From: Tetmemena sp. SeJ-2015
Taxonomy: Eukaryota > Ciliophora > Spirotrichea > Sporadotrichida > Oxytrichidae
DNA length: 64,000 bases
Assembly (NCBI GenBank): GCA_027382625.1
Contig: JAJKFJ010021923.1
Coordinates: 186,001-250,000 of the forward strand
Reading direction: 5' to 3'
Part shown: positions 6,216-64,000 of the stretch, piece after piece
Numbering within the stretch: the first letter of the stretch is position 1
Layout: each line of letters starts with the position of its first letter
Notes under the pieces: generated by a model
What the model was told of the DNA's origin: nothing
Database searches by the model: none
Seen by the model: only the letters and a program-made list of their open reading frames with translations
Made by a program: the position numbers and the translations under genes

Positions 6216-9200
6216 ATGCAAACATATCCCTTCCAGAAGTAAGTCTCTTTCCAATTCACCAATCCTCACTATTTTGGAATTCTTAAACTTACAGTCTTTG
6301 ATACTTTGAAATTTAGAAAATTAACCTTGACACCTTGACTTTTGATTGTAATTAAAGCTCTTTTTATAGTTTGCAATTAGTTTCTCCAACACAAAAATCA
6401 CTCAGATCTCCAAAGACTTCTTTAAAAACATTCAATCAGTATTCTTCAAACACTAAAGTAGCAACTCCCTCCTCCTCTTCTTAACTTCAAGCACCCACTC
6501 CAAGTTCACAGATAATTGACTTCAAGAAATCAAACTGGGCTTCTCAGTCTAAGTTGCAGGACTTCACTTATAACTCCCAGCTAAAAAGGTCTCTCAAGCA
6601 AATTACTCATGCAAATTCGTCCTCAAAGAAGACTAACTAGCTACTCAAAAATGCTCGAAACACTTCCAATAACAGCACTCACAACTCCAATTATGTCTTT
6701 ATATTTTAATTCTAAAGCCAAAATCAAGGACATCTATTTATTTTTACGCTCTAGAATTGTGCCAATCAGCAACTACGAGATCCATCACTAGTCTCTCCGC
6801 TATTTATACCTAAAAATTTAATCAAAAATTAAATTATAGGGGGGGGACGGAAGTGCACCTCCACCCCCTTTTAATGGTCAAAATCGCCCAAAAATCTACC
6901 TTAAAGGCCGAAATCGGCCAAAAATGCCAAAAAATTAAGAGTTTTTGGCCTTCGAAATTTCTCTTTGAGGGTCAAATTTCATGATTTATTTTTTTCAAAA
7001 ATTCTCGCAAAATTTTTGTGTTCAAGTTTTTTATAATTTAAACCATTTGAAAATAATTTAACTATTTTTTAAAAATAAGGAAAAATTTTGTAAGATATTC
7101 AATCAGTACCAGACAAAAATTCTAAAATAATTTTAAAAGAAAACAAATATAGGCCCTTAATTTTTTATAAGTTAAATGAAGCCATTTAATAAGATATCTA
7201 TAAAATATAAGTTACGAGAACGGAACTCAAAAGAGAAATTTTTTTTTTATAGAAAATTTATTTATTTAAAGAGAACTAAAAAGTGCCATTTAATTCAAAT
7301 CAAGAAATTATCTAAAAAAAGCAGGAATAAGGTTATCAAACTCCCTGATTTAAAAAGGAGGGGAAGCTCTTTGCACAAATTCATTTTATAAAAGATAGCA
7401 AGCTTTATTTACGATTTTGATAAAAAAGCATTTAAACTTCTAGAAATCATTGAAAATACTTCCACCTATTTTTATAATAATTTCTTAAGCTCACTTTTTT
7501 TTAAGAAGAAAAATAAAAAAAAGGAAAAAAATTCAAAAGTAAATTCAGTCAAAATTTAAAAGGTGATTTGAGTCCCAAAAAACAATTGAAAATATTATAT
7601 CCAAAAAATAAGTTCTTGATTAAAAAAAAAAAAAAATTTTTTTGCAAAAAATTTAAATAATGAATTTAACCCTCAAGAAATTTCAAAAGTTTCAAAAAAA
7701 CTCTTAATTTATTTGGCATTTTTGGCCCAATTTCGGCCTAATGGACGATTTTTGGGCTATTTTGACCATAAAAAGGGGGGGAGGTGCACTTCCGTCCCCC
7801 CCCCCCAAATTATATATTAAATTGAAATGGATTTAATGGTTCGCTGTAAAGTGTTTCAGAATTATTCAATAATTAGATTCAGTATCAAATTCTAAGAACT
7901 TTAAATTTTTGCAACTCTAGTGTGCTTATTTTGAGTTATAAGAGACATTGGTTTCATAAAAAAAGAATTGTGATTACCTTAAATTGTGTAAATAATATCT
8001 ATCTACTTAGAGGGGCTATCAAGATGATTAAACAAGAAACTCATATTATTTTTAGATAAGCAAATCGAGGAGTGCTTAAGTTTTTTTTCAAATGTCACCA
8101 AGTTGCAAGTCTTCATTTATTGATATAACCAATTTCAGATTTAAAATAAAGTTTAAACTATATTATTTTAACAAAGCTAAGGAAAATGCATTCCCTTGCT
8201 AAGATGATTCAATCAGAAATATAATTTAACTTATAAAGATAAAATCATAATTAAATAATTTTAAATAAAAACAATATATTAGCTGTCCATTAATTTGCTT
8301 ATATTAATTTTGTTGAAATGAAGGCCTGCTGTTGAAGTAAGATGGATTCAATATAATTTAATATAAGTTACGAGAATGAAGAACTGAAAAGAATGAATAC
8401 TGCTCTGTCATTTTATGATATAGAAAGAGATAAATTATTTATTTAAATTGACTGCAACTCAAAACAATGATGCCATCATTCCTCAACATCAAACATTTAT
8501 CATAGAATAAAAGCAGGAATAAGTTAATCAAACTCCCAAAAATAAGATAAGAAAATCAATAGGAGAGGTATCAGGCAGGAGAAGCTCTTCAAGCAAGCAA
8601 ATTCAGTTCTAGGATCTTACAAATCGATCAAATTTATATTCCATTTTTTTCCTTTATAAATAATCAAACGTAAAGCAAATCCAAGAAGCATCCTCTCGAA
8701 AATACTTAAATTTCATTTTTCATTTTTAATAAATGCTAAATATTTCTGTGTATTATAAATATCAAACATTTAATTTTATTAATTTATGAATACGATACAT
8801 AAAAATCAAAAGCTGCAACAAAGAATGAAAAATAGAAAAGCAAGAAGAGTAAAAATTCTTCAAAAGTTACAGTCAAGTCTTTGTTTGATTCGTCAAATCA
8901 GGCCAAAATGCAAAGCAATTAGAAAAATATTATAGTGCCAGAGAAAAGACTAAGTTCGTAAGATATTAAACATGATCCATTAACAAATAAAATATTAAGT
9001 TTAAAAATGTCAAAATAATCTCTAATAAAAAAAATGATTTAAAAGTTTTCAGTCTTATATATTTTTTAAGCAAAAGTATTTAATAAAATATATTGCTTTT
9101 AATTTCTATAAAGAAGGTCATTCTTGGTCTGACCAAGAAATTTTATTCTGATTCTTTGTACTATTTACAGTTTGATTGAAACTTATGATGACTTTTTAAA

Positions 9201-20524: not shown

Positions 20525-23500
20525 ATGTCCTACGCAGCAAAGTCCCAAACACAAGGGGCTCAGCTAAAATCTGGCTAATACAGCGTAAGTTATTTATAAT
20601 TCCAAGCGATTTAAGTCTAAAATCCATTTAGAACGGATTCCAGTTCTCCCAAGGAGGATTTAGCGCAATTAGAGAAGAAATCATTGACAAAAATGTAAGT
20701 GAAAGAACAAATACTAAAATATGTTCAGTCCTGATGCGAAAGTTTTACAACCAATTTCGATATTCACCTCTGAGATTTGTATTGTAACTTTAATATAGGG
20801 AGCGCTTTTTAAGTTGGGTACTCACACTCCAGCCTATCAGTTAAAGCAAGAGACCTATGTTCCTCGATCGGAAGCTATTGATTTAATAAAGCAGGTAAGT
20901 TGAAACTTCCTTTTTATAAAGAAAAAGTCTATTTTTGGAACTGTTGCCCCCTATTCATAACTGAATTTATAAAGTTTTAAACGGCATATATCCGAATTTC
21001 AGATTAATTTTATAATGCAACTTAAATTGTAAAATTTATTTCATGAGCAATTTAGAAATTATTTATAATTTTCATTTTTGAGGACAATTTTTAATTTAAA
21101 AATTGTCAAGTAATGAGTATAAAATAATTAGGGCGAACTTAAGTAATAAGTTAGCTTTCCTAAGTTCTTGCTCTTAATTATATAGCAAAATAAGAATAGA
21201 ATTTAGAATCAATTTTTAACAGCTTATTAGGAAGTAATATAAATTTGACTGTTTCATAATTTAAGTTTAATTCTCAATAATTTTCCAAGCCAAGACTCTA
21301 AATTTGTATCCCTTGTTTGAATTAAGTGAGAGTGAACTTGTTAATTATAGATTGAGCAAGAAGCAAAGAATAGAATAGATTAGTACAAGGAGTTCACAAT
21401 CCAATTGAAGAGCAAGTACGATCTCTTCGAAAAAGAGTCACACGCCTACTACTACGACATCATAGACCAGCTAAAGTTAAAGATAAGTACCCACGTTGAC
21501 CAGAAGAAAGACTTGCTTGCAAAGTTGTCCATGGAGAAGCAAGACTACGAAAAGTGCATCTCAGAATTGAACTAAAAGATCCTAGGTGGACACATGCAAC
21601 TTGAGGCATTTTCAGAGCAAAATGAAAAGAACCAGCGCCAAATATCCGCAAAACAGGATATCATCTATGATCTTGAGAGCAAGCTAGAGAAACTTACTTA
21701 AGAGCACGAGTAGCTCCTTAATAAAGAGCCAGAGAAAGTTTTTGTGGAAGTAGATAAGCTAATCTATGTGGACAAACCAGACGACAATACAGTCGACTAC
21801 TCTGAATTTGAGTAACTGATCAAATGGAGAGCGGATAATAAGGAGATGATCAAGTATTGGTATCAGCAATTCTTGAGAGATAATGGCAAGCCTCCTGAAC
21901 TCTCAGACTTCAAACAGTGCTAAGGTCTCGTGAATCACTATATGGAACTCAATCACAGATACACTGATCTCAAGCTCAGACTCCTCAGAACTGAAAACTA
22001 CAAGCCAAGAGTGGAAAAGTTTGAATGCCACATTTTATCATGATTGCTTTTTGTTCTAACCTCCTGAAGTTATCAAAGAGATAGTCGTGGAAAAAGTAGT
22101 AGAGTATGTCAAAATTGAGGTGCCAGTTGAAGTTCCAGTTTACATTCAAGCTGAAAAAGCTGATGAAAAACCATTGGCTCCTAGAATGGGAAACTTTTTC
22201 TCTGAAGCTCCTCAATAAGCGAATAATGATGCGGAGCTGAATAAAATCACCAGTGAAAAATAGGCTTTAGAAATGACTCTTTTAGTATTTTAGAAAGTGA
22301 AATTGAAGCCTACAAATAAGATTTGGAGATGAAGGAGCTAAGAAATAATGAGCTATAGGAAAAATCACAGACTAGAGCAGATGCTGTAATCAAATGTATC
22401 TGAGGACTAGCTCCTAGACGGATTCAGAAGAGAGATAGCAACTTAAAAGGCACTCGTTCATGATAGAGATACCAAGATTGACTAACTAATCAAGAACGAG
22501 AAGGAGTTAAGTGATAAGAAAAAGAGATAGTAATGGACCTCCAAAAATTAACCAAGGCCAATAAAAAGACTTAGAAATAGAAATGAGGATCTGGCCAAGT
22601 AATTGGAGGAAGCTATGGCAAGACCCGAAGAAGAGCAAAAGTTAGATCCTATGGCTGGAATTACTCAGCATGATTTCTCTAAGCATTTGAATATGCCGGA
22701 GAACCCTTTTATGCCAAATGAGTCTGCTAGATCTAGTATGATGATCGAGCAGTAAAAAGCGCATCATGATGCTGAGCTCAGTCAAATGGAAAATGCTTAA
22801 AAACTTTTGCGATTCCAGTTAGACGAGTTGAAGAGATAGAACGAAGACTTAAATACCCAAATTGAAATTCTGAAGAAGGTCTCGCCTGGAGAAGTCAAAA
22901 TCATTGAGAGGAAAATTGAGGTACCTATTGAAATTGAAAAGATAGTCGAGAGGATTGTGCACGTTCCTGTTGAAGTAAGAGTAGAAGTCCCCGTGAAAAG
23001 TGATTCTCAAGCTTCCCAAGCTAATTAAGTACCTTCTTAAAATCCTCAAAATGCTAATCAGAGCATTTTAACAGAGAAAATAGAGGTTTAGGATATTTTC
23101 TCAGATAGAACTCAACATCAAAATCAATCCGTGATCACCCAAAAGCCTGCTGAAATTCATCAACAATAGCCACTAATAATTTAATCCAGTTAGAGAACCG
23201 AAATTAATCCTATGGATACTTCATTTGTGAAGAATTTACAAAGCGATGCTCTATAGAAGGACAATTAAATTGCAGTACTATCTGTATGATGATTTTTAAT
23301 CTATCTCAAGAAGTGTAAGATCTGAAACTGCAGCTTCAAAAAGAGCCTAGAGTTGAAATTAAAACCGATAGAGAGGCTGCTGAAAAGGTTTTAGAGTTGG
23401 AGAAGCAGGCAGCTCTGTTCCGTTAGAAGTTAGACAAAAAGAAGCAAAAGATAGCTCTTTATAAGCAACAAAAGGCTCAATTAGAGAATGACTTGCAGCA

Positions 23501-25452
23501 ACTTAGATAATCAAGCACTTCAGAGGTCGATAAGATTATTTCGGAGTATCAAAGTCAAATAAGAACTCATGAGTCAGAGATAGAGCAACTCAAGAAGGAA
23601 AAAGAGAGACTCATTCATGGTGGACAAGAGAGTGTTGCAACCATCTAAAAAGCTCATGAAGAATAAGTTGCTAAGCCTTATAGCCAAAAACAATAATGAA
23701 GTCTAGCAAATGAAACTTGCTTAACAAGAAAAGGATCAATAAATAAAGCAGAGAGAAGATATAATCAACAATCTCAGAGTGTAGCAAGAGCAGGCCAGCA
23801 ACTCTAACACTCAATTCTAAAATAAAATAGCACAGCTAGAAGCTAGCATAGTTGAAAAAGAGAAAACTGAAGCTAAGATGGTAGACAAGATAGGATAGCT
23901 AAGCTAAATGGCTGGAGAGGCAGCCAATCTAAAATTGGAGGTTGAGAGTTTGACTTCAGAGCTTAATGGCATTAAGAAGGATCATCAGATAATGGAGGAA
24001 AAATTCAAAGAGGAGTAGAAGAAAAGAAAGTAACTTCACAATGAATTGGAAGACTCAAAGGGTCAAATTAGACTTTACTGTAGAGTTCGTCCTCTCACAA
24101 AAGCTGAGCTTGAGAGAGAAGAATCAAAACATATGGCTATTAAAATTCAAGATGAAATGTCTCTCCACATTACCAATAGAAACGGACAGATCAAGAATTT
24201 CAACTTTGACTCAGTGTTTGGTCCTAAGTCAACCTAAGAATAAGTCTTTGAAGAAAGTAAGAGGTTGGTGCAAAGTGCGATCGATGGTTTCAATGTGTGT
24301 ATATTTGCATATGGTTAAACTGGTTCTGGAAAGACTTTCACTATCCAAGGAAACGCTGCTAATTATACTTATAGTTTAAAGTTTGTATTGAGTTTTAATC
24401 CAGGTCTTACTCCTCGAACTATTTAAGAGTTGTTCGACTTAGTAGGATAAATGAACATTTACAAGATTGCACTGAGATGCTACATGGTTGAATTGTACAA
24501 GGATGATTTAAGAGATCTGCTGTTACCTAAGAATTCAGTCAAGAAGAACTTGGAAATAAAGGAATCTTCAACTGGCTAGGTAGTTATAAATAATGTAACG
24601 GAGGTTGAACTGCACACTTCCGAAGACGCTAACAGAATTTTCAACTATGGACTTGAACATAGAATTATTACTTCTATTTTGTGGAATGACAAGATAAACC
24701 AAGATGAATGAGGCAAGTTCTAGATCTCACTTGATCTTCTCTCTTGTGATTGAGGCTTTCAACAAGCAAACTAAAGTTAGAACTGTGGGTAAGCTGTCAT
24801 TTGTGGATTTGGCTGGCTCAGAATCTCAGAAGAAAACTGGAACTGACAAAGAAGGAGCAGAAGAAGCAAAGGCAATTAACAAGTCACTGTCAGCCTTAGG
24901 AAATGTGATCGAGGCTCTTTCAAAGGGATCCGCTCACGTACCATACAGAGACCATACTCTCACTAAGGTTATGAGAGACTCCCTTGGAGGAACTGCCAAA
25001 ACACTCATGTTCGTCAATATAAGTAAGCCATTTTAAGAAATTAATATAAAATCAATGTGTCCCCCTCGGTGTATAACTAGTAAGAAAGTATAAATTCCAT
25101 GGACTATGCAACTCGTGTTAAGAAGATTAAAAATCAGGTCAAGATTAATGTAGAATCCAAAGAGACATCGGGTCTCAAGAAAATGGTGCAAGGTCTTGAG
25201 TTCGCTCTAGACTAATATAAGCAACTGCTACTCAAATCTAACATGGCATCAGAGCTTGAAGCGCTGCAGAAGTTAAATAGTTTATTTAAATAAATAAGTA
25301 ATTGTTGAGTGTCCTTCCCTAGGAGCAGCTTGATAGTGGACCATCTACTAATAACCTTCACAAAGAGGAAAGCAAAGAGGAGGAGGATGAGGAAGAGGAT
25401 GAATGAAAGAACCGATGATAGCATATCTTCTCACCAGTCTGATGAAGAGTAA
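20525..25452 (+). CDS. kinesin-14 family motor (C-terminal motor domain)
   Basis: ATG at 20525 (MSYAAKSQTQGAQLK). Three GT-AG introns (20585-20631, 20695-20798, 20895-21350) lead into about 700 codons of coiled coil from 21351. The motor begins near 24040 with the kinesin-14 neck HNELEDSKGQIRLYCRVRPL. P-loop AYGQTGSGKT is at about 24306-24335, switch I is MNEASSRSH (24704 on), and switch II is VDLAGSE (about 24803). A C-terminal MDYATRVKKIKNQ follows at about 25099. Four resolved or probable IESs cut the motor and tail (24364-24399, 24666-24687, 25019-25056 and near 22028-22060). The acidic tail ends at TGA 25403-25405, or about 25450 if a GAATGAA slip is removed. Expected to be a minus-end microtubule motor for spindle or cilium-related transport. 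Confidence 0.93.
24364..24399 (+). other. IES of 36 bp, pointer TAAT
   Basis: TAAT at 24360-24363 and 24396-24399. Excision joins FTIQGNAA to NPGLTPRT, the conserved region after the P-loop in kinesins. Confidence 0.9.
24666..24687 (+). other. IES of 22 bp, pointer GAAT
   Basis: GAAT at 24662-24665 and 24684-24687. Excision yields GLEHRMTRQTKMNEASSRSH. Its spacing between GLEHR and MNEASSRSH equals that of canonical kinesins. No GT-AG boundaries are present, so it is not an intron. Confidence 0.93.
25019..25056 (+). other. IES of 38 bp, pointer TCAAT
   Basis: TCAAT at 25014-25018 and 25052-25056. Excision gives LMFVNVSPSVYNQQES, the standard kinesin 'VNISPxxxNxxET' block. Confidence 0.92.
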
Positions 25453-33419: not shown

Positions 33420-33872
33420 AAAAATATATGTTTCAAATAATCTAATTTAATATCATATGCTAACATGTTTGAATTCATATTTAATTTAATCTTGCTGGGT
33501 AATCAAAGTTCTAATTATAAAAACTAGCTCATTAAAATTAAATGGCTAAAAAAATGCTTCGTAAAAATTATATATTTCTTGATTACATTAAATTATTTAA
33601 ATTCGATTTAAAAAAATAAAAATCCTCTTTGTATTTCACTTTACTGTTTTCCAAGTATTTTATTATCGATCTAATATTGAGAATTTGATGAAAATATCGT
33701 GCCCAGGATGATGAGGAAGCAAAGGATGGTAAACCTTTTCAATTTTAGGATGCCTATTGAGCCATTATGCAATCTCGAGGCAATTCTTTTGTATTCTTTT
33801 TACTCTAATTCTCAAAGTTTGAAGTCCCTCTCTTATCTAAAATCACCCCATCTCATTTAACTCTTAACCAGA
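33420..33872. other. AT-rich spacer
   Basis: No supported gene. Leads into the foldback element. Confidence 0.4.
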
Positions 33873-34847
33873 TAAAGATGAATCGTTGGATTTTAAGAAG
33901 ATATGCAAATGTGCAAGAAATTCATGAGAAATAAGGTGCGTTCTATGCTATAATTGCTCAGTGTATTGACTCTTGACTCCGTGTTTTTTGAACATTCTAC
34001 TGCCACTGATGGAGTTCTCTCTCTGAGTTTAGCACCGATTCTTACTCACTTTTTCCAAGGTATCCGAGATAACATGACTGCTCTTCACTGATATGCTCGA
34101 GAACTTTCGACTAGGTATTTCGTATACTTGCTCTACAGAGGTTACCAGTTCGCTGGAATTCTTAGTTTTTGTTCATCTTTTCTGTCATTATTCTCAGTTA
34201 TTCACTGCTGTCTTCCATTTTAATTGCTAAAATTGAAATGAATAAAGAAAACTTAATTACTCTTATTTATTTAGTCTTAAAATTAATTAAGAATTCTTAA
34301 AAGTTAATCTCTTTTAAGGCAAACATTCTTAATGTAGTTCTTAAATGATATCTCTATTAAAGAAAAGGCTTATTAGGGATCTTATAAATTTTAATCAGAG
34401 TCTTAATTACTGTTTGCTAATTCTTAATTAATTTTAAGACTAAATAAATAAGAGTAATTAAGTTTTCTTTATTCATTTCAATTTTAGCAATTAAGAATGG
34501 AAGACAGCAGTGGAACTAACTGAGAATAATGACAGAAAAGATGAACAAAAACTAAGAATTCGCAGCGAACTGGTAACCTCTGTGAGAGGCAAGTATACGA
34601 AATACCTAGTCGAAAGTTCTCGAGCATATCAGTGAAGAGCAGTCATGTTATCTCGGATACCTTGGAAAAAGTGAGTAAGAATCGGTGCTAAACTCAGAGA
34701 GAGAACTCCATCAGTGGCAGTAGAATGTTCAAAAAACACGGAGTCAAGAGTCAATACACTGAGCAATTATAGCATAGAACGCACCTTATTTCTCATGAAT
34801 TTCTTGCACATTTGCATATCTTCTTAAAATCCAACGATTCATCTTTA
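33873..34847. mobile_element. foldback (long inverted repeat) element 1, about 975 bp
   Basis: Left arm about 33873-34295 and right arm about 34419-34847 are nearly perfect reverse complements (a few 1-2 base indels seen) around a loop of about 120 bp. Outer ends read TAAAGATGAATCGTTGG on the left and its complement on the right. No transposase-like frame and no clear target duplication. The inner about 250 bp is nearly identical to the centre of the element at 49977-50955, while the outer arms differ. Type is a foldback or MITE-like family. Confidence 0.85.
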
Positions 34848-34966
34848 CTACAAAGCAAATAATTAATTAATTTAAATAAATATTGTCCAATATTTTTATA
34901 ATTTATTTAATATTATATTTTTATTAAAAATAACGTTTTAGCATAAGGCTATAGCATTTTACCTTA

Positions 34967-35275
34967 TTTGATCTGCTCCATTCTTTGGTATAAGTCTTAT
35001 TGATTAGTGCAAATACTCCTCCCATTGAATCTGAATGTCCATTTATATATTTAGAAGTTGAGTGCACAACGATGTCTGCTCCCAAATTAAGGGGATTTAA
35101 ATATACTAAAAATTATATAAATATATCTGTAAGAAATAAAAATGTTTATTTAAATTGCATAGTTTATTTATATATTGGATTCTAAAAGTAAGATAGGAAT
35201 TGATTTTACATCATAAAGTAATCTTACACAAAATATAGGAGAGCAGAAAGTGTTATCAACTATCAGTAAAACTTT
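34967..35275 (-). CDS. MDS 5 of the scrambled PLP enzyme (PLP lysine)
   Basis: Starts at pointer AAAGTTTTAC (plus-strand 35266-35275) and reads [18 protein letters not shown] intron follows (35229-35106), then [20 protein letters not shown], the Schiff-base lysine context. It ends at pointer ATCAAA (plus-strand 34967-34972). Confidence 0.9.
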
Positions 35276-36795
35276 AAAATTAATTGCATCTTCAATAAAA
35301 AACGGATCAAAATATTAATTAATTTAATAAAGGATATATCTTAATAAATTTTAATGGAAGATACTTTTACAAAATAAAGCAGAGAAGGCTTTTCTAGAGA
35401 AGATAAAACTAATGAAGATGGGATTGAAACATAAATAGCAAAGCTAGAGAATGCAGAATTTTGTTTAATACTGAACAGTGGTGTGAAATATCAATTGGAT
35501 CTATCCTGATCGATTTAAAATACTTTCCTTGAAAGGTCCTGAAAATCATTTGACCGAAATTTAAGAAATATTATCAGCTGAAGATAGCAGTGTTAAAGTA
35601 TGATTGATAAATTATATAAAAAATTTAAAGCACAAGAGAATTAAAATTTAATAAGTTGAATCAATTGTAATTTTTAATTTATGAAATAATTTCGCAGTTT
35701 ATTTTTCAAATTTTTAGAAATTTTCTTCCTAGATACGAGTAAGTCTACTAGAAATTATCTTGAGCAGATTTTTTTGACATTAGTTAGCATATTCTTAGAA
35801 TACGTTACTTAATTATTATAATGTAATTATTGAAGTATAAGCTCTAAATGTAAAAAAAAATAACAAAAATATTAAACTGCCTTAGATCTCTTAGGAATAA
35901 AACTCCACTCAATTAATTAATTTTAACACCATTTTTCAAGGATTTTTTACAATACTTCATTCTCTTTAGATGGTGTTTTTAGACACTCCCAGCAATCCTC
36001 AATTGAATAATCAATTTGATTTGATATGCGGATATAATAAAATAGTTTCTTTTGTAATATGTTTTTGAGTTTATTTCATAATATTTTGCTGAATGCCTGT
36101 TCTAAATCATCATTACATTTGTATTTAAAATATAAATGATTCATCCCTCAAATCTGAAGCGTTTTCTATTCCTATTGAGATTCTGAATAGGTTGTCTTTT
36201 ATCCCCATTTATGCTCTCTGCTCAGGACTAAAATATTAATCAAACAATTATCAAATCATCATAGAAGCTGTTAAAACATAAAATATATGAGTGATAGTAT
36301 CTCAGGGTTCCTCCTAAGTTGTCTATTGTACTTTAAATGCCTCCAAGGCTCACTCCGTACTGAAAATATTTAAAAGACTTTGCTAAATCACAGATCTTAT
36401 CAATTAAATAAATTTAATTTACTCTAAAAGTTGTGATATCTTTTTTTAAATGTCATCACTAAAAATAGTCAAAAGTTTACTATCTTTACCATTTAACCTC
36501 AAAAGAAAAGCACCCACAATAGCCTCTTGCTTGTTTGATGAAAAAAATAAGATATATAATATAAACTAAATAAAATCATTTATTTTGTAAAACTTTGAAC
36601 TTTTGACACAGCTTCCCAATTTCTTGAATATCATAAATCTCAAGAAGAGGATTGCATCATTTTCTTATCTCTAATCAAAGGATAGATCTTTGAGAGTAAG
36701 TGTCGCGTGCCAGCATAGAAATCGTGTTGCACAATAATTTATGCTCCAATGGGGAGCTATTATAGAACAACTTAAATCGCACTCACACCACTGTT
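34967..36795. CDS. scrambled gene: cystathionine gamma-synthase/lyase-type PLP enzyme
   Basis: Six macronuclear-destined segments (MDSs) on both strands encode consecutive parts of a Cys/Met-metabolism PLP enzyme. Genomic order is -5, 1, 3, -6, -4, -2. Adjacent MDSs share pointers: 1/2 AACAGTGGTGTGA, 2/3 GATCTATCCT, 3/4 GCAATCCTC, 4/5 AAAGTTTTAC, 5/6 ATCAAA. Read in order they give [55 protein letters not shown], the PLP-lysine motif [12 protein letters not shown], then GVSLGGIQST and FRISIGIEN. This is the standard family order: substrate loop, ETPxNPxL, VDNTF, HSxTKYxxGHSD, SLGG, RxSVGIE. The N-terminal 40 or so residues, including most of the YSRxxNPT box, are not found nearby. The C-terminus near 36110 is also uncertain. 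The enzyme class makes or splits cystathionine in sulfur amino-acid metabolism. Confidence 0.9.
35354..35486 (+). CDS. MDS 1 of the scrambled PLP enzyme (most 5' piece found)
   Basis: Reads EGFSRE, a tandem GAAGAT repeat that may bound a 15-bp IES, then [15 protein letters not shown] and LILNSG. Ends in pointer AACAGTGGTGTGA (35474-35486). The ATG at 35354 may be internal. Confidence 0.85.
35498..36000 (+). CDS. MDS 3 of the scrambled PLP enzyme, with a 372-nt intron
   Basis: Starts at pointer GATCTATCCT (35498-35507), reads [25 protein letters not shown] intron (35598-35969) is followed by [10 protein letters not shown], ending in pointer GCAATCCTC (35992-36000). The intron is far longer than others here and may hold an IES. 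Confidence 0.88.
36110..36539 (-). CDS. MDS 6 (and later) of the scrambled PLP enzyme, C-terminal part
   Basis: Starts at pointer ATCAAA (plus-strand 36534-36539) and reads [20 protein letters not shown]. After an IES of 44 bp (36399-36442, pointer AAGAT) it reads [21 protein letters not shown] further interruption at about 36235-36290 precedes [23 protein letters not shown] is at 36112-36110. The last residues do not look like the usual C-terminus. Confidence 0.82.
36587..36655 (-). CDS. MDS 4 of the scrambled PLP enzyme (69 bp)
   Basis: Bounded by pointers GCAATCCTC (plus-strand 36647-36655) and AAAGTTTTAC (plus-strand 36587-36596). Reads [20 protein letters not shown]. Confidence 0.9.
36679..36795 (-). 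CDS. MDS 2 of the scrambled PLP enzyme (117 bp)
   Basis: Bounded by pointers AACAGTGGTGTGA (plus-strand 36783-36795) and GATCTATCCT (plus-strand 36679-36688). Reads SGVSAIQVVLQQLPIGAQII, then [18 protein letters not shown]. Confidence 0.9.
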
Positions 36796-36933: not shown

Positions 36934-39155
36934 ATGATTGAATAAAAAGGAGACTACAAGCAATTGGATTCGCTCTATAATTTTTCCAACCAAGCCTCAA
37001 AGCCTATCTTAACAAAAGATAGCCTAAATGTGAAGTCTGAATTTCCAGGAAGTTCAAAGGTCTTTCTTTGGCTGATGTTTTTCTATGGCCTTGGAAATCT
37101 ACTCCCTAATATGGCAGTGCTAACAGATCTAGACTATTTCATTCACAAATATGCTGTAAGCGCATCTATCCTATCTATCTTTTTGTATTTGCAGTATTTT
37201 GTAACACCTTTTGATTAATTTGTTGTGTAGCCGATAGGTGGGAAGCCTGATTTCATTTACAACATGATAATAAACTTCTCATTTGTGGTTGGATAAACTT
37301 TGGGGATCAGACTAGTTTACAGCTTTTCGTATCTAATGAGACTGTACATCTATCTGATTCCTTTGATTCTAATATTGGCGGCTTTTCCCTTCATTATCCA
37401 ATATACCGAGCTAAATCTAAGTTGGATCCTTTCCAATATAATTATGGGTATCATAGGTAAATATTCCTTACCTTCAACTAACTACTAATTTGATAGGAGT
37501 GTGCTTAGGAACTCTAAACTCCATTTTCATGGGAATCGCAGGACTAATAGAGCCCAAATTTATAGGTGCAAATCTTTAAGGGTGTGCCTTCAGTGCACTT
37601 GTAGTTAGCTTTATTCGATTAATTTGCTTGCTCTCTTTTGACAGCAGTATCGAGATAAACTATTTCTATTCCACTATTCTATACTTCGCACTTAATGTTC
37701 TCATTTATAACTATGTGTATTTTTTAATTATTTTGTGTATCATTTTAGTGGCGATGACATTAACTCTTCCGGTAAGAAATTATTTCTGTTTCTTTCTTTG
37801 AAATAAACACGCCTTTTTTTAAGAATCTGATTGGTGTTTATATCTGTTACTTATCTTAATATAGTTTTTCATAAATTCCACATACGTGCAGCATTATCTC
37901 AATAAAAGAAAGAATAACAACAACTAAAGTACTGAAAATGATAATTAGAAGTTGCTTAACTAAGAATCAGTCAACTACGGTAGAATTAGCCAAAGGCCAA
38001 CTACTCCAAATCAATTTAATTTGCATTAATTTGCTGGAAATTAATAATCTTTTAAAACTAAAATTCTAAAAAAATAAACTTTTAAAAATTAAATAAAAGT
38101 AAATTTTTGAGATGTAAAATAGTAGGAGAATTTATTTTTATCTGATTGAAATTAAAATTTTAAGATTTATTCTTTATAAGCAATATCTTATATAATAAAT
38201 TTAGGTTAACATTGATAAATTTAATTTTAATTGTTTTAATATTTTTGTCGTAATATATATTTTTAAGACTCCAAGTAGAGAGGATATGGGAAACATTAAT
38301 TTGTCCACAAATTTGAGTCAAAATTTAGAGTTTAATCCTGACTTTTCTCCATCAGCTTAAATAATATTATATATAACATAGCTAAGAGTTTACCATAGGT
38401 TGTAATTTCATCTCTACCTGGAGATAATGAGAAATAGAATTTACTTTCAGATTATAGCTAATTTATATAATTTATAATTTATTAACAATTTTGCTAATTA
38501 TCTTAATTGTCTTATTATGAGTATTAATTTAAAAAGTAATTAATCATTATAATCCATCAATAGTAAACATAGAAGCCTATCGCTGAATAAAGTTATTCGC
38601 CAAAACTAGAATACACAGTTGTGATTTAGAAGATTTGGGTGGAGATCCTGTTTATATTTATAAACTTTCTGATTACATTCCTTCTCTACCCTAGCATAGT
38701 ATACTCTGGAAACTTAAGCATTTTCAAATCGGCAGACTGGAGGATTTTTATATTCAACCTAATGTTCAACTTGGGAGATTTCTTAGGAAGAACCTTTGGA
38801 AGATTTAGGCACGAATATCCAAGGCCACTTTATGTAATTGGAATCTCCTGCAGAGTAGTTCTAATCGCTTCTACTTTCCTAATGGGGTTTAATCCCTCTA
38901 ACGTATTTTGGGGAAGCAGTGCAGTGATTATGATTAACGCTACCTTGATAGGTTTGAGTAATGGATTCTTTGTAGTGGCAGCTGGAAATAGTTTTCCCAA
39001 TAAATTAGAAAACCACGAAAAAGAGTTTGGAGGATTTATCATTTCCATGACCATCAATCTTAAAAATGGATTGTTTTTGGAATTTAAATCTTGGAATCGC
39101 AATAGGGTCAATGATAAGTCTCCTCGCCTTCTAAGACATCTTCACATCCAATTGA
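36934..39155 (+). CDS. equilibrative nucleoside transporter (SLC29/ENT) family protein
   Basis: ATG at 36934 (MIEQKGDYKQLDSLYNFSNQ). TM1 context reads FFYGLGNLLPNMAVLTDLDY, like the ENT 'G..LLPWN' box. Five more hydrophobic helices run to about 37770, interrupted by a 40-nt GT-AG intron (37457-37496). A long Gln/Asn-rich intracellular loop with AT-rich IES-like blocks spans about 37800-38630. C-terminal helices follow, with NLMFNLGDFLGRTFGRF (ENT 'FNxxDxxGR' signature, about 38755) and LIGLSNGFFVVAAGNS (about 38948). A resolved IES at 39062-39092 restores LGIAIGSMISLLAF. Stop TGA is at 39153-39155. Expected to move nucleosides or nucleobases across a membrane. Confidence 0.87.
39062..39092 (+). 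other. IES of 31 bp, pointer AATCTT
   Basis: AATCTT at 39056-39061 and 39087-39092. Removal joins SMTINL to GIAIGSMISL in the last transporter helix. Confidence 0.9.
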
Positions 39156-39210
39156 ACACAATATAAATACTATAAACACTATATTTTCCTCTTAATTTCA
39201 AATAAATCTC

Positions 39211-40341
39211 ATGGTATCTGATAGAAATTACGAGCTTTATAAATTTTTAATTAATGGAAAACAGTTATTAGATGCAATCAGCTTAAGCAAGCAATTAAGG
39301 ACTTTAAATCTAGAAGCATCCTTAAACTCATCACACTTAAGGAATCTCGCCAAATCAGCTACTCAAGAAAAGATACAAGATTAATGAACCGATAACTGAT
39401 AAAAATATAAATAATTATGATCTGATGAGACTGAAGTTGTGTTTGGTTTTGATCAAATGTCTAAGATGCCCAAAAATTTGAAGATAATGATTAGAATAGT
39501 AAGAAATAAAGTAGAATTTGACAGATAAGTAAGCCTATTCAAAAATCTAAGGTCCCCTTATGTGAGCACCCTTCTTGATTACTGGGAAGAACAAGGGATA
39601 GGATTTATTGTGCTGGAAAGAGGCATCTACTCAGTTGATTAGTACTTGTCAGAAATGCAAGGTAAAATAGACTTAGATACGAAGAAATACATTCTACTGG
39701 ATATGATTTCATCTTGGCTCTTTCTTTTCTAGTATGGTTAATATTAATTAAGAATTTATAAGTTATTACTGCGAGTTCAAGCCTGAAGATTTCATGTGGT
39801 ATTCTGGAGGACACTGGAAAATCGTAAATTGCACCAATATCTGCACATTTTAGGAAATCTAGCCCATTCCAACAGGAGGATCTTAAGGAGAATCTGATCC
39901 CAACCACATTGAATTCATTCATGTGGAACCTTAAATAGTATCCAAAATTATCAACTAAGTTGTTAAAATTAGATTGATTTTAACTTTGAGCACTCGCAAG
40001 TATTGCATGATCCTGAGGTTCCTATTTAAACTCTTGGCATGATGCTTTTGGAGCTGTTCTTAATGTCTCCTATTCTAGCAAATAAATCTTATGAGGAAAT
40101 GGTGGAGGACTTGAGAAAGGGAGCACTCATGAGCTTTGTAAGCACAGAGGAAGATAAGAGCATATTCGAAATACTAAGACACATAATACTCCAAACTTAG
40201 CACGAGAGAGAAGAGCAAGAATCTATAATAAAACATGTAGATGCTCTTGTAAAGCAGTGGAATCAGGTAGGAGGTGCACCCTCAGCTGATGAAATAAAAA
40301 AGAATCTTGGAAAGTATATAAACAAAGCTGGGGCATTTTGA
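39211..40341 (+). CDS. protein kinase-like protein, probable pseudokinase
   Basis: ATG at 39211 (MVSDRNYELYKFLINGKQ). The N-lobe-like part reads KIMIRIVRNKVEFDRQVSLF and SPYVSTLLDYWEEQGIGFIV. The catalytic-loop region after an IES (39741-39765) reads YYCEFKPEDFMWYSGGHWKI, then VNCTNICTF. The first stretch aligns with HRDLKPEN, but the catalytic Asp is replaced by Glu and Asn by Asp. The DFG position reads NCT. The C-lobe has VPIQTLGMMLLELFLMSPIL and ends in a helical tail, TGA at 40339-40341. Loss of the metal-binding residues suggests a pseudokinase. Frame changes at about 39390 and 39970 point to more IESs. Confidence 0.72.
39741..39765 (+). other. IES of 25 bp, pointer GTTA
   Basis: GTTA at 39737-39740 and 39762-39765. 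Excision yields LFQYGYYCEFKPED, restoring the kinase catalytic-loop alignment. Confidence 0.75.
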
Positions 40342-49976: not shown

Positions 49977-50955
49977 ATAAAGATGAATTTGTGGATTTAA
50001 AGCTGATATACAAAAATGCAGCAAATCTACGATAAATAAGGCTTCCCATAAGCTCTAGCTGTGCAGTGTTTTGACTCTCCTCCACCTCTTATTTGAACAT
50101 TTTACCAATTCTGAAGCCATTCTCTCTCTGGATTCTGTACATATTCTGTATTGCTCTCTTTAGCTCAATCGAGATAACATATCTGCTCCCTACAGTATTG
50201 TCACTGAAATTTCTACTTGTCATTAGATCTACTTACCTCTCATTGAAGTTGTCAAATACCCAAGAATTCTTAGTTTTCACTCTCCAATGTGGTTGTCATT
50301 TTAACTCTGTTCTCCTTGTGTCTTCCATTCTTAATTGCTATAATGAAATTGAATTAGGAAAACTTAATTACACTTATTTATTTACTCTTAAAATTAATTA
50401 AGAATTCTTAAAAGTTAATATCTTTTAAGGCAAACAGTCTTAATGTAGTTCTTAAATGATATCTCTATTAAAGAAAAGCCTTATTAGAGATCTTATAATT
50501 TTTATTCAGAGTCTTAATTATTGTTTGCTAATTCTTAATTAATTTTAAGAGTAAATAAATAAGTGTAATTAAGTTTTCCTAATTCAATTTCATTATAGCA
50601 ATTAAGAATGGAAGACACTAGGAGAACAGAGTTAAAATGACAACCACATTGGAGAGTGAAAACTAGAGAATTCTTGGGTATTTGACAACTTCAAATGAAG
50701 AGGTAGTAGATCTAATGAAAGTAGAAATTCAGTGACAATAATTAGGGAGCAATATGTTATCTCGATTGAGTAAAGAGAGCAATACAGAATATGTACAGAA
50801 TCCAGAGAGAGAATGGCTTCAGAATTGGTAAAATGTTCAAATAAGAGGTGGAGGAGAGTCAAAACACTGCACAGCTAGAGGCTTATGGAAAGCCTTATTT
50901 ATCGTAGATTGCTGCATTTTGTATATCAGCTTTAAATCCACAAATTCATCTTTAT
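49977..50955. mobile_element. foldback (long inverted repeat) element 2, about 979 bp
   Basis: Outer ends ATAAAGATGAATTTGTGG and complement. The arms, about 49977-50405 and 50535-50955, pair almost throughout, with several small mismatches. The loop, including the tract from TTCTTAAAAGTTAATATC to TTAATTATTGTTTGC, is nearly identical to that of the element at 33873-34847. It is the same length class, with no protein-coding potential recognised. Confidence 0.83.
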
Positions 50956-61255: not shown

Positions 61256-64000
61256 TCTTCAGAATGACTTACCTCTAGCAGCTTTGCAAGCTCTGGCTAT
61301 GTTTTCATACACAAAATCAGTGTTTTCAGTAAGCTCTTCCAGCTATTGCATACTCTCAGGCTCAAGTTGAGTGTGATCAAAGTTTACTAAGATTTCTTAA
61401 AGCTTAGGGTTTCCAAGCACGTGCTTGCTAGTTGCAGCTGCCCAATAGTCTTTGGTATAGCCAATTCCATCCTTAGCCTTGAACTTTATTGGCTCCACTT
61501 TCAACAATATGCAGACACCTTCCATAAGTAGTTTAACTGCGTTAGGAGGATTCTTCAAAGTCTTTAGCTCATTTATTTCAACTTTTGATAGATTTTAAAG
61601 TGCTGCAATTGCACTAAATAATTCAGGAGTAGCCTTGTTCAAATTAAATTCACACTCTTCTTTAATCTTCTCTGCTTGTTCCCTTTGCAAATTAAAACAT
61701 ATTATTTAATATTAAGCTAATATAATTGAATTTGCAATTTAAAAAAATTAACTAATAACAATGAGAAGTTAGAAATTCTTGATTGAAAGTGGAGTAAGCT
61801 AATTTAAGTGACTGTTTGTTTTATAAAATAGATTATATCAGGAGTAATTTATTCATCAATAATAATTAAATTATTATAAGCTTATGCATAATAAACATGC
61901 TTAAAAGAAAATTCTCCTCTTGCCTGATCTCTATGGCTGCAGAAGAAGGCTCTCTTCACCAATGAAACAGACAGATTTAAGGCTAACCAATGTATTAAAT
62001 CCCAAAATAGCTAAAATCTTTTTTACCCTAAATGGGCTTGGGCAAAATGTGAAATTAAGAGCGTTGATGGAGCGTGAAATGATTATTAGAGTAGAAGTGG
62101 TCCTTCGAACTAAAAACTGTATCAGAGAGAAAAAATTTTTACTCTTTAGATGTAATAAAAGGGATAAATAAGAGATATGTAGATTCAGATGGGAGAGTAG
62201 TTGAGGTCTAGAGCTATTTTCAACTCTGGGCAGTAATAAGGCATTGAAAAATGTATTGGCAAGAATCAATTTAGGATGGAAAGGATAAAATTAATGCACA
62301 TTATTATAATGGAGAACTCTCAAATTGCAATGGCAAATTTAACGGAAGTTTGGTAGATACTAGCAAAATACTAAAGTTACAGATTTAGCAAATTCTTAAA
62401 AAACTTAGTATTTTAAAAAAAAAAACCAAAAGACCAAAAGATTGGAAGAAATTGATCTGCAAATGATGATGCACAATTGGAATTCATCAGTGAAAGGATA
62501 AAGACTTTAATTTTATAAACTGGTAAATATCTAATTAAGGGTGCTACTACAACAGTTGCATTAGGATAAGGAACTTAAAGTTGTCTTTAAATTGAAGATA
62601 AATATTCACACCACAGAGGATAAGGTTCAAAGACTATCGTGGTTATGGGACAGTAGTTTGCTATTTTGATCAATGTAAAATTGAAAGCACATATTAAAAA
62701 CTGTAGTCTATTACTCATAAATAAACAAAAATTAAACCAGCAGCCACAATCTTATTATTTTAAGTCTTTCAAATGACCTTTTTTGAATTCTATGAGCGCT
62801 TTAAACTAAATAATTATATTAAAAATATCTACTCATATAGCAATCAAAAATCCTGCAGTTTATAGTTAATTTTTTTTTTGGTGCAAAATTAATTATATTA
62901 GCTTAATAATTGAGCTCCTATTCTTCTTTCATGAGCGCATCTCTTCGCTTTCCTACTTTGATGTGCTGCTCTTTTAAGTTTTCCAGTATCTTTTCGAGCT
63001 CAATCTGCTTCTCAATCAGCATGGGAGAATTATTCTCCAGTTACTCTTGGAACTTTTCTACTTGTTCTTGGGTATTCTTGAGCCTTTCAAGGCCAGTTTC
63101 ATACCTTTCCTGCAATTCCTTGAGACTAGTGCGCTTTTACTCGAATAGTTCCTTGTAGGTATTTATGTAGTCAATGAATGAATGGGGAGTGATGTAGAGA
63201 TAATGCTGCGTTTCCTAGAGATAGTTCTTAGCCATGGCTATGGTATCCATGTGTATTGAAATCGCAATTTCCAAAATCATGTCTCTGTTTACAACTTCAT
63301 CTTCCTTGAGAAGTGTCTCAGCAACTTCCTTATAGCCTTCAGTCGGCCAGCTATCCATCCAAATTATAGTTGAGCAGTTTACTATTGACTTGAAGTTTCT
63401 TATTCTTGCACGTAGATTAGCCCCAGTAGGAGTGAAGTTTAGCAACACTTTCAAGTTCTCTCTACACTTTTGAGAAAACTCAGCCAAAACTATCTAATTA
63501 TTCAGAGCATTGCCCTTATCAATAGCTGTAGAGGCTGAAGTTGGACCTCCAACTCTCATGTTATAGTTATAATTTAAACAGATAACAATTTAATTTTGTT
63601 TTGACAAAAAATATATTTTTACTATAGGAATAAGAATAAAGGATGTTCTCAGCTACTAAGAGAATTTTTTTCCATTTATAATGGTCAAAAAGAAAAAGAG
63701 AAATAAACATCCATAAATAAAGGGCATTTAAATCAATTTTTTATAAGCCTTCTCATTTAAATGTTAAATTCTTTTTATTGAGATACTTAATCTTACAATC
63801 AACCTTATTAAACTTGATTATTTTATTAAGTCCTAATTTAATGTTTAAACAATCAATAGTTTACTATATGATGTTCTCGTATTCCTCTTTTGTAAATATG
63901 CCTTGTATTTCTCCATTATTTACAAGGGTATTGATATCATCAAGAAATTCCTCCCTTATAATTTCGTTGTGCTTCAAATGGAACACTACTTCCTTATGAT
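61256..64000 (-). CDS. dynein heavy chain, partial: AAA4, stalk and microtubule-binding side
   Basis: At the window edge the minus strand reads EEFLDDINTLVNNGEIQGIF (about 63940), the AAA4 'FLEDINxLLNxGEVPxLF' block. After an AT-rich break (about 63560-63820) it reads FSQKCRENLKVLLNFTPTG and SIVNCSTIIWMDSWPTEGY (63487 on), the AAA4 C-terminal signature. Next are SIHMDTIAMAKNYLQETQHY and the stalk coiled coil CC1 to about 62890. After a 1.2-kb break, 61690-61260 reads QREQAEKIKEECEFNLNKAT and NELKTLKNPPNAVKLLMEGV, then GYTKDYWAAATSKHVLGN. These are the helices flanking the microtubule-binding domain. The rest (CC2, AAA5, AAA6) is not downstream in the window. Force-generating subunit of axonemal or cytoplasmic dynein. 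Confidence 0.92.
61700..62890. other. insertion within the dynein gene, with plus-strand coding-like pieces
   Basis: This 1.2-kb block separates two dynein pieces that should be nearly adjacent. It is partly AT-rich, but about 62160-62700 on the plus strand has short MORN-like stretches (YYNGELSNCNGKFNGSL, RFKDYRGYGTVVCYFD). It may be an IES carrying MDSs of another gene. Confidence 0.4.

Follow-up and report, generated by a model that had tools for sequence, protein, structure and literature searches.

Pieces of what looks like one conserved enzyme lie out of order and partly inverted in the 64,000-nucleotide stretch analysed here (hereafter called the window), which raises the questions of whether they form a single scrambled gene, how far it extends and whether it is intact. 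We hold with high confidence that this is a micronuclear locus of an Oxytrichidae-like spirotrich, with one scrambled gene for a Cys/Met-metabolism PLP enzyme, joined at pointers. The genetic code is of the hypotrich type, with TAA and TAG read as Gln. Translation table 6 gives 260 open frames of at least 120 residues in the window, compared with 5 for table 1 and 21 for table 10. A silent CAA/TAA difference separates the window from a partial second copy of the locus (contig C5192, see below). The window is ciliate germline DNA, and its code and scrambling fit an oxytrichid. No CCCCAAAACCCC was found in the window, and Rfam gave no match there at gathering score.

A family profile was generated from 100 of the best 120 listed matches (of 7532) of a protein search and run on six-frame stretches of the window. 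The query of that search was a 301-residue protein that contained a wrong 5/6 join, and only the 8000 candidates sharing most words with it were scored; none of the best 120 of the 7532 matches exceeded 43% identity. The profile matched the following places:

35333-35485, plus strand: profile positions 20-75
36813-36682, minus strand: profile positions 66-109
35913-36008, plus strand: profile positions 118-149
36653-36588, minus strand: profile positions 145-166
35278-34981, minus strand: profile positions 163-179 and 177-218
33836-33690, minus strand: profile positions 238-286 (E 3.3e-12)
36536-36143, minus strand: profile positions 288-310, 306-332 and 341-371

Four of these matches are weak when taken singly (E 0.055, 0.062, 0.098 and 1.3). 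Together with the pointers, the matches place the gene segments in the order -5, 1, 3, -6, -4, -2, with the even segments 2, 4 and 6 grouped in one orientation, the odd segments 1 and 3 in the opposite one, and segment 5 beyond these. The initial annotation had proposed this very order and orientation, on which profile matches, pointers, reading frame and three paralogs agree. It had also confined the gene to 34967-36795. The match at 33836-33690 lies outside that interval and extends MDS 5 to 33684, so that the corrected interval is 33684-36795. The segments and their internal features are as follows:

35354-35486, plus strand: MDS 1, from the start codon to pointer 1/2 (profile positions 20-75, Met position, pointer)
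36679-36795, minus strand: MDS 2, holding pointers 1/2 and 2/3 (profile match, pointers)
35498-36000, plus strand: MDS 3, holding pointers 2/3 and 3/4 (second half by profile, E 0.06)
35598-35969, plus strand: GT-AG intron-like gap of 372 nt in MDS 3
36587-36655, minus strand: MDS 4, holding pointers 3/4 and 4/5 (profile match, pointers)
34846-35275, minus strand: first part of MDS 5, beginning at pointer 4/5 (profile, paralog alignment)
35227-35182, minus strand: intron of 46 nt in MDS 5
35176-35093, minus strand: IES of 84 bp with pointer AATCC in MDS 5
34962-34848, minus strand: intron of 115 nt in MDS 5
33684-33874, minus strand: second part of MDS 5, ending in pointer 5/6 (profile E 3.3e-12)
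36076-36544, minus strand: MDS 6, from pointer 5/6 to the stop codon TGA (36078-36076)
36489-36459, minus strand: intron of 31 nt in MDS 6

By the pointer coordinates, MDS 1 is separated from MDS 3 by 11 bp (35487-35497) and MDS 4 from MDS 2 by 23 bp (36656-36678), exactly the distances first reported. Odd-even scrambling with inversion is borne out by pointers, frame, profile and paralogs; the introns and further IESs had gone unmentioned. The profile score alone does not fix the internal structure of segments 3 and 6. The first half of MDS 3 (35498-35597) lacks a profile match of its own, and its placement relies on pointer, frame and paralogs. In its stead the pointer-aware alignment favoured a 6-bp AGATCT jump to 35886, and the profile was undecided between the two (mean 315.0 versus 315.6); the segment was chosen because of its 10-bp pointer and because paralogs A and B have the intron that follows, with lengths of 47 and 71 nt, at the equivalent codon. 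Within the 372-nt gap, 35725-35760 encodes a stretch that resembles VFLDTPSNP from the true exon and may be a decayed duplicate or a chance likeness.

In MDS 6, comparison with the second copy identified three IESs, with pointers AAGAT, ATAT and GATGA. Most of the structure of this segment was settled thanks to C5192, in which the segment 6 intron is 32 nt long (31 in the window) and only GAT of the AAGAT pointer is common to both flanks. The intron and IESs of MDS 6 differ between the two copies, and the coding parts remain in frame. A C-terminal reading through TASMM scored 3 bits better on average, yet it is not conserved in C5192 and was rejected.

The five scrambled junctions carry these pointers:

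35474-35486, plus strand, and 36795-36783, minus strand: pointer 1/2, AACAGTGGTGTGA, 13 bp, two occurrences in the window
36688-36679, minus strand, and 35498-35507, plus strand: pointer 2/3, GATCTATCCT, 10 bp, two occurrences in the window
35992-36000, plus strand, and 36655-36647, minus strand: pointer 3/4, GCAATCCTC, 9 bp, two occurrences in the window
36596-36587 and 35275-35266, both minus strand: pointer 4/5, AAAGTTTTAC, 10 bp, three occurrences in the window, two of them at the locus
33694-33684 and 36544-36534, both minus strand: pointer 5/6, TTTTCATCAAA, 11 bp, two occurrences in the window

The first four words, of 13, 10, 9 and 10 bp, had been called correctly: each is exact and found at both ends of its junction. 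Among 19885 random pairs of zones, a common word of equal or greater length occurred 6 times for junction 1/2, 187 times for 2/3, 671 times for 3/4, 187 times for 4/5 and 51 times for 5/6. These control zones were 61 nt long and placed from the profile matches, or set by eye for the starts of segments 2 and 3 and for the 5/6 end of the initial annotation. Mismatched pairs of segment ends and starts (n=30) shared a longest word of 4-9 letters in 28 cases, and of 44 and 32 letters in two pairs whose zones overlap. Pointers at scrambled junctions in the window (9-13 bp) exceed those at non-scrambled junctions (2-5 bp) in length.

Translation of the pointer-joined segments keeps the family frame intact across junctions 1/2, 2/3, 3/4 and 4/5, and segments 1 to 5 form one open frame from ATG 35354 to SDSMGG, where a deletion described below interrupts it. 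All five scrambled junctions of the window restore the frame, the 5/6 junction as judged from the sequence and a pointer-aware profile alignment. Frame restoration had been claimed for every junction, which stands for 1/2 to 4/5 and fails for the 5/6 join that was then proposed.

That proposal places the end of MDS 5 at 34967 and has it meet segment 6 directly, with the 6-bp word ATCAAA as pointer. The word is indeed present at both places, but it occurs 114 times on the two strands of the window and brings segment 6 into the wrong frame, and a match of 6 bp is expected by chance: 13843 of the 19885 random zone pairs share a word of at least 6 letters. The direct join leaves out profile positions from about 219 to 286, of which 238-286 are matched at 33836-33690. 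The two readings that use it score 184 and 227 with the family profile, against 293-334 for 48 other variant readings, and the paralogs join this middle piece to segment 6 by pointers of 11-12 bp. We therefore give the direct join next to no credence and retain the 11-bp pointer. Pfam PF01053 likewise scores 336.5 bits with the corrected, paralog-guided reading (X at the two lesions), 304.9 bits with an earlier provisional reading that had some 29 residues out of frame, and 170.7 bits with the reading of the initial annotation.

A pointer-aware profile alignment of the window scored 250 with all jumps allowed and 142 with forward same-strand jumps only. The paralogs scored 281-326 versus 161-199 under the same two regimes with a profile of the window protein, runs that are partly guided since that protein is itself a reconstruction, and 219-256 versus 154-184 with the family profile. 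Among the controls, the highest score was 22.7 for 12 random stretches of the window and 21.8 for the four loci reversed. Lenient penalties gave many chance pieces, and the penalties were raised. At the strictest setting, the alignment favoured a 5-bp TTTTA pointer (34929 / 33842), which was discarded when the paralogs placed an intron and a palindrome there instead.

These paralogs, A, B and C, are three tandem relatives on contig C2893 (locus L032). On one strand their segments follow the order 2, 4, 6, -3, -1, 5, i.e. the minus-strand order of the window, and the five scrambled junctions recur in all three within a few codons of those of the window. In paralog B, segment 2 is split by an IES-like jump. 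The pointer lengths compare as follows:

Pointer 1/2: 13 bp in the window, 12 in A, 9 in B, 9 in C
Pointer 2/3: 10 bp in the window, 6 in A, 7 in B, 9 in C
Pointer 3/4: 9 bp in the window, 12 in A, 12 in B, 11 in C
Pointer 4/5: 10 bp in the window, 10 in A, 8 in B, 11 in C
Pointer 5/6: 11 bp in the window, 11 in A, 11 in B, 12 in C

Taken singly, the 6-bp pointer 2/3 of A and the 7-bp one of B do not exceed chance expectation. In paralog C, the 9-bp pointer 1/2, GTTGCTCTG, was picked by hand, the program having taken a 5-bp jump, and the program also made extra jumps inside segment 6. The pointer words differ partly or wholly between copies, as would be expected from pointer sliding, a process credited to DuBois and Prescott (1995) in the available text of PMC9797194.

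Contig C5192 (L034) corresponds to positions 43757-35994 of the window, with 95.6% identity over 7.8 kb. It retains every even-segment pointer, its introns and IESs differ, and 163 codons show 8 silent and 3 amino-acid changes relative to the window. At 35994, inside pointer 3/4, it leaves the window sequence and turns into a repeat, so that only its even half could be compared. This part (L034:7783-9000) contains the repeat, with 17 matches in the genome including itself, the others at 76-95%, and an array of GGCTCACT-like units. Further copies of the paralog A region are found on contigs C4497 (99.4%) and C507 (95-98%); both start at one and the same base (L035:1 and L036:1), within pointer 1/2 of A's MDS 1 (L032:2815). 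Contigs that start inside a pointer, such as C4497 and C507, or diverge inside one, such as C5192, are what joined macronuclear reads branching the assembly graph at pointers would produce. A non-scrambled, contiguous relative on contig C1923, identical on C3577, is 39% identical over its best stretch. Two family members without in-frame stops, with frames of 414 and 409 residues, are present on contig C3464, which is perhaps a bacterial contaminant.

Could the order of segments be an assembly error, or the pieces unrelated gene fragments? The assembly is fragmented (5213 contigs, 146 Mb), C5192 changes into a repeat within the locus, and the first base of both C4497 and C507 falls in a pointer of paralog A. 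Misassembly would nevertheless hardly yield frame-restoring repeats of 9-13 bp at five junctions, and the order recurs in three paralogs on another contig, whose five junctions fall at nearly the same codons. The agreement of the paralogs makes an assembly error or a set of unrelated fragments very unlikely and indicates that scrambling came before the duplications. During macronuclear development, the segments of the scrambled gene would be joined by recombination at the pointers, with 1 and 3 inverted relative to the rest, and the AATCC, AAGAT, ATAT and GATGA IESs and a TA-flanked palindrome would be deleted, to give a gene whose predicted product is a PLP enzyme some 360 residues long. After duplication of the already scrambled gene, the pointers of each copy would have shifted by a few codons.

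The palindrome interrupts segment 5:

33873-34847, no strand assigned: palindromic element (inverted repeat) of 975 bp, bounded by TA on either side and immediately following the intron AG in MDS 5

A second copy is found in the window at 49977-50955. The element is palindromic over nearly its full length (~0.98 kb) and belongs to a family of ~0.94-0.99 kb with TA at both ends and the form TAAAGATGAA...TTCATCTTTA. Alignment shows that it is absent from the corresponding site of paralogs A, B and C: the window reads intron ...GTAG, TA-element-TA, TCTGG, and the paralogs read ...TAG, two bases (AC or TG), TC(T/C)GG. Because the paralogs lack it, we regard the element as an insertion at the first bases of the exon. 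The target TA was probably duplicated upon insertion, since length and frame match the paralogs only if one TA is kept. The element would then be excised as an IES, with TA as its pointer, and it looks like a newly made IES.

One arm of the palindrome has at least 74 genome matches (40 of the 151 first-look candidates were scored). We compared 22 copies, 2 in the window and 20 elsewhere in the assembly (L059-L078). TA flanks both ends in 20 of the 22 copies, which are aligned end to end; the other two are L075, aligned only partially at one end, and L077, cut by its contig. The arms within a copy are 97-100% alike (21 two-armed copies), and 20 copies are 63-93% identical to that of the window, gap columns excluded. 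L065 and L066 have the same flanks, and L060 and L077 appear to represent a single locus twice. The flanks of L068 and of L073 are also inverted copies of each other, which may reflect a fold-back in the assembly or else an inverted duplication of larger extent. Each reading frame of the 440-nt left arm has a TGA somewhere among 20 copies.

The ends of TBE transposons are CCCCAAAA. The palindrome differs from TBEs in being palindromic over nearly its full length and in that its copies examined end in TAAAGATGAA or similar, without CCCCAAAA. TBEs encode a transposase and two further frames; the left arm of the palindrome shows no conserved open frame. It resembles the transposon-derived IESs of hypotrichs (TBE, Tc1/mariner type), as presented in the available text of PMC9797194, as a repeat inside a gene with TA ends whose removal with germline DNA is probable. 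A further inverted repeat, with arms of about 165 bp at 84% identity, is present at 6839-7803 of the window.

The initial annotation had assumed an intact gene. Alignment with paralogs A and B instead revealed two lesions in MDS 5:

35009-35022, minus strand: site of a deletion of 1 nt, by comparison with A and B
33843-33845, minus strand: in-frame TGA, a sense codon in A and B

Each may be real decay or a consensus error. The locus might thus be a scrambled pseudogene, once functional and now decaying in MDS 5, with other paralogs doing the work. MDS 5 carries all three changes, the deletion, the TGA and the 975-bp insertion, none of which A and B have, in line with decay. Against it, the two copies of the even segments show the 8 silent versus 3 amino-acid changes given above, the joined frame is open from the ATG to the deletion, as are the even segments up to the stop codon, and the deletion itself may be a consensus error. 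In addition, an intron ending at TTTTAG (33842-33837) would skip the TGA and, with the deletion, hold a frame, although this reading, made by eye, introduces some 17 foreign residues and finds no support in the paralogs. We view a decaying pseudogene as a genuine possibility, somewhat short of an even chance. No other close copy of segment 5 turned up in the assembly, where the matches were the segment itself and one of 79% over 95 nt in C2893, and a 258-nt query of joined segments 1-2-3 matched only separate germline pieces of the germline assembly.

The encoded protein belongs to the Cys/Met metabolism PLP enzyme family (PF01053), with its 336.5 bits set against a cut-off of 27; paralog A scores 314 bits. 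VDNTF and HSTSK are found in the window, and DNTF and HS(T/A)(S/T)K in A, B and C; we take the Asp of (V/S)DNTF and the Lys of HS(T/A)(S/T)K to be the PLP-binding residues of the family. The best NCBIfam model is TIGR02080 (cystathionine gamma-synthase, equivalog), at 270.1 bits versus a cut-off of 504.55, and the protein remains under the cut-offs of all 25 NCBIfam models listed; therefore, no exact enzyme name is given. The cystathionine gamma-synthase/lyase type first assigned is accordingly upheld at the level of the PF01053 family, by score and motifs, and not as an exact enzyme.

Compared with the cystathionine gamma-synthase and gamma-lyase family, the fold family and the Lys and Asp motifs are alike, whereas the four scrambled copies have a short, unrelated N-terminus. 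An N-terminal Y-S-R of the family reaches the active site of the neighbouring subunit; the window has FSR, and no such motif was seen by eye in A, B or C. A Met precedes the (I/V)A(K/G)LE motif by 27 residues in the window, 31 in A, 27 in B and 29 in C. ATG 35354 was taken as the putative start codon because all four copies have a Met there and lack the canonical N-terminus. An additional N-terminal MDS, thought to be missing, is unneeded with this start, which the paralogs back; no convincing profile match to one was found within the window. A 5' non-coding MDS may also be present.

Odd-even scrambled genes of ciliate germlines were reportedly described by Chen and colleagues in 2014. Odd-even scrambling, longer pointers at scrambled junctions, an association with paralogs and transposon insertions in IESs are documented in three species in the available text of Feng et al. 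2022 (PMC9797194), which counts scrambled loci by the thousands in E. woodruffi. Relative to Oxytricha trifallax, Tetmemena sp. and Euplotes woodruffi as described there, the present locus is alike in its odd/even MDS clusters and inversions, its scrambled pointers longer than the non-scrambled ones, its tiny IESs between odd/even neighbours and its local paralogs, and is not different in kind. What it adds is one multi-copy case in which four paralogs have all five scrambled junctions in common. Our literature search for a cystathionine-family gene scrambled in Oxytricha found no paper on the gene; the palindromes and paralog-shared scrambling were compared with the available text of PMC9797194 only.

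Scrambled genes being common in these ciliates, the locus alone is one more example, and its value is comparative. Pointer sliding can be measured inside one genome, across four paralogs and five junctions. The palindrome, present in one copy and absent from three, allows the states before and after to be compared for a mobile element that turns into an eliminated sequence within a gene. We lean, by a modest degree, towards a history in which all four copies of the family owe their inverted odd-even layout to a scrambled ancestor and one of them has newly gained an IES through a TA-targeting palindrome at an exon edge, so that pointer sliding and IES birth would be seen side by side.

Elsewhere in the window, a gene with a Nucleoside transporter domain (PF01733, 47.5 bits) lies to the right of the locus at 38342-39478 on the plus strand. 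Long table-6 frames encode a Kinesin motor domain at 23326-24708 (plus strand) and a dynein AAA_8 region at 62630-63973 (minus strand).
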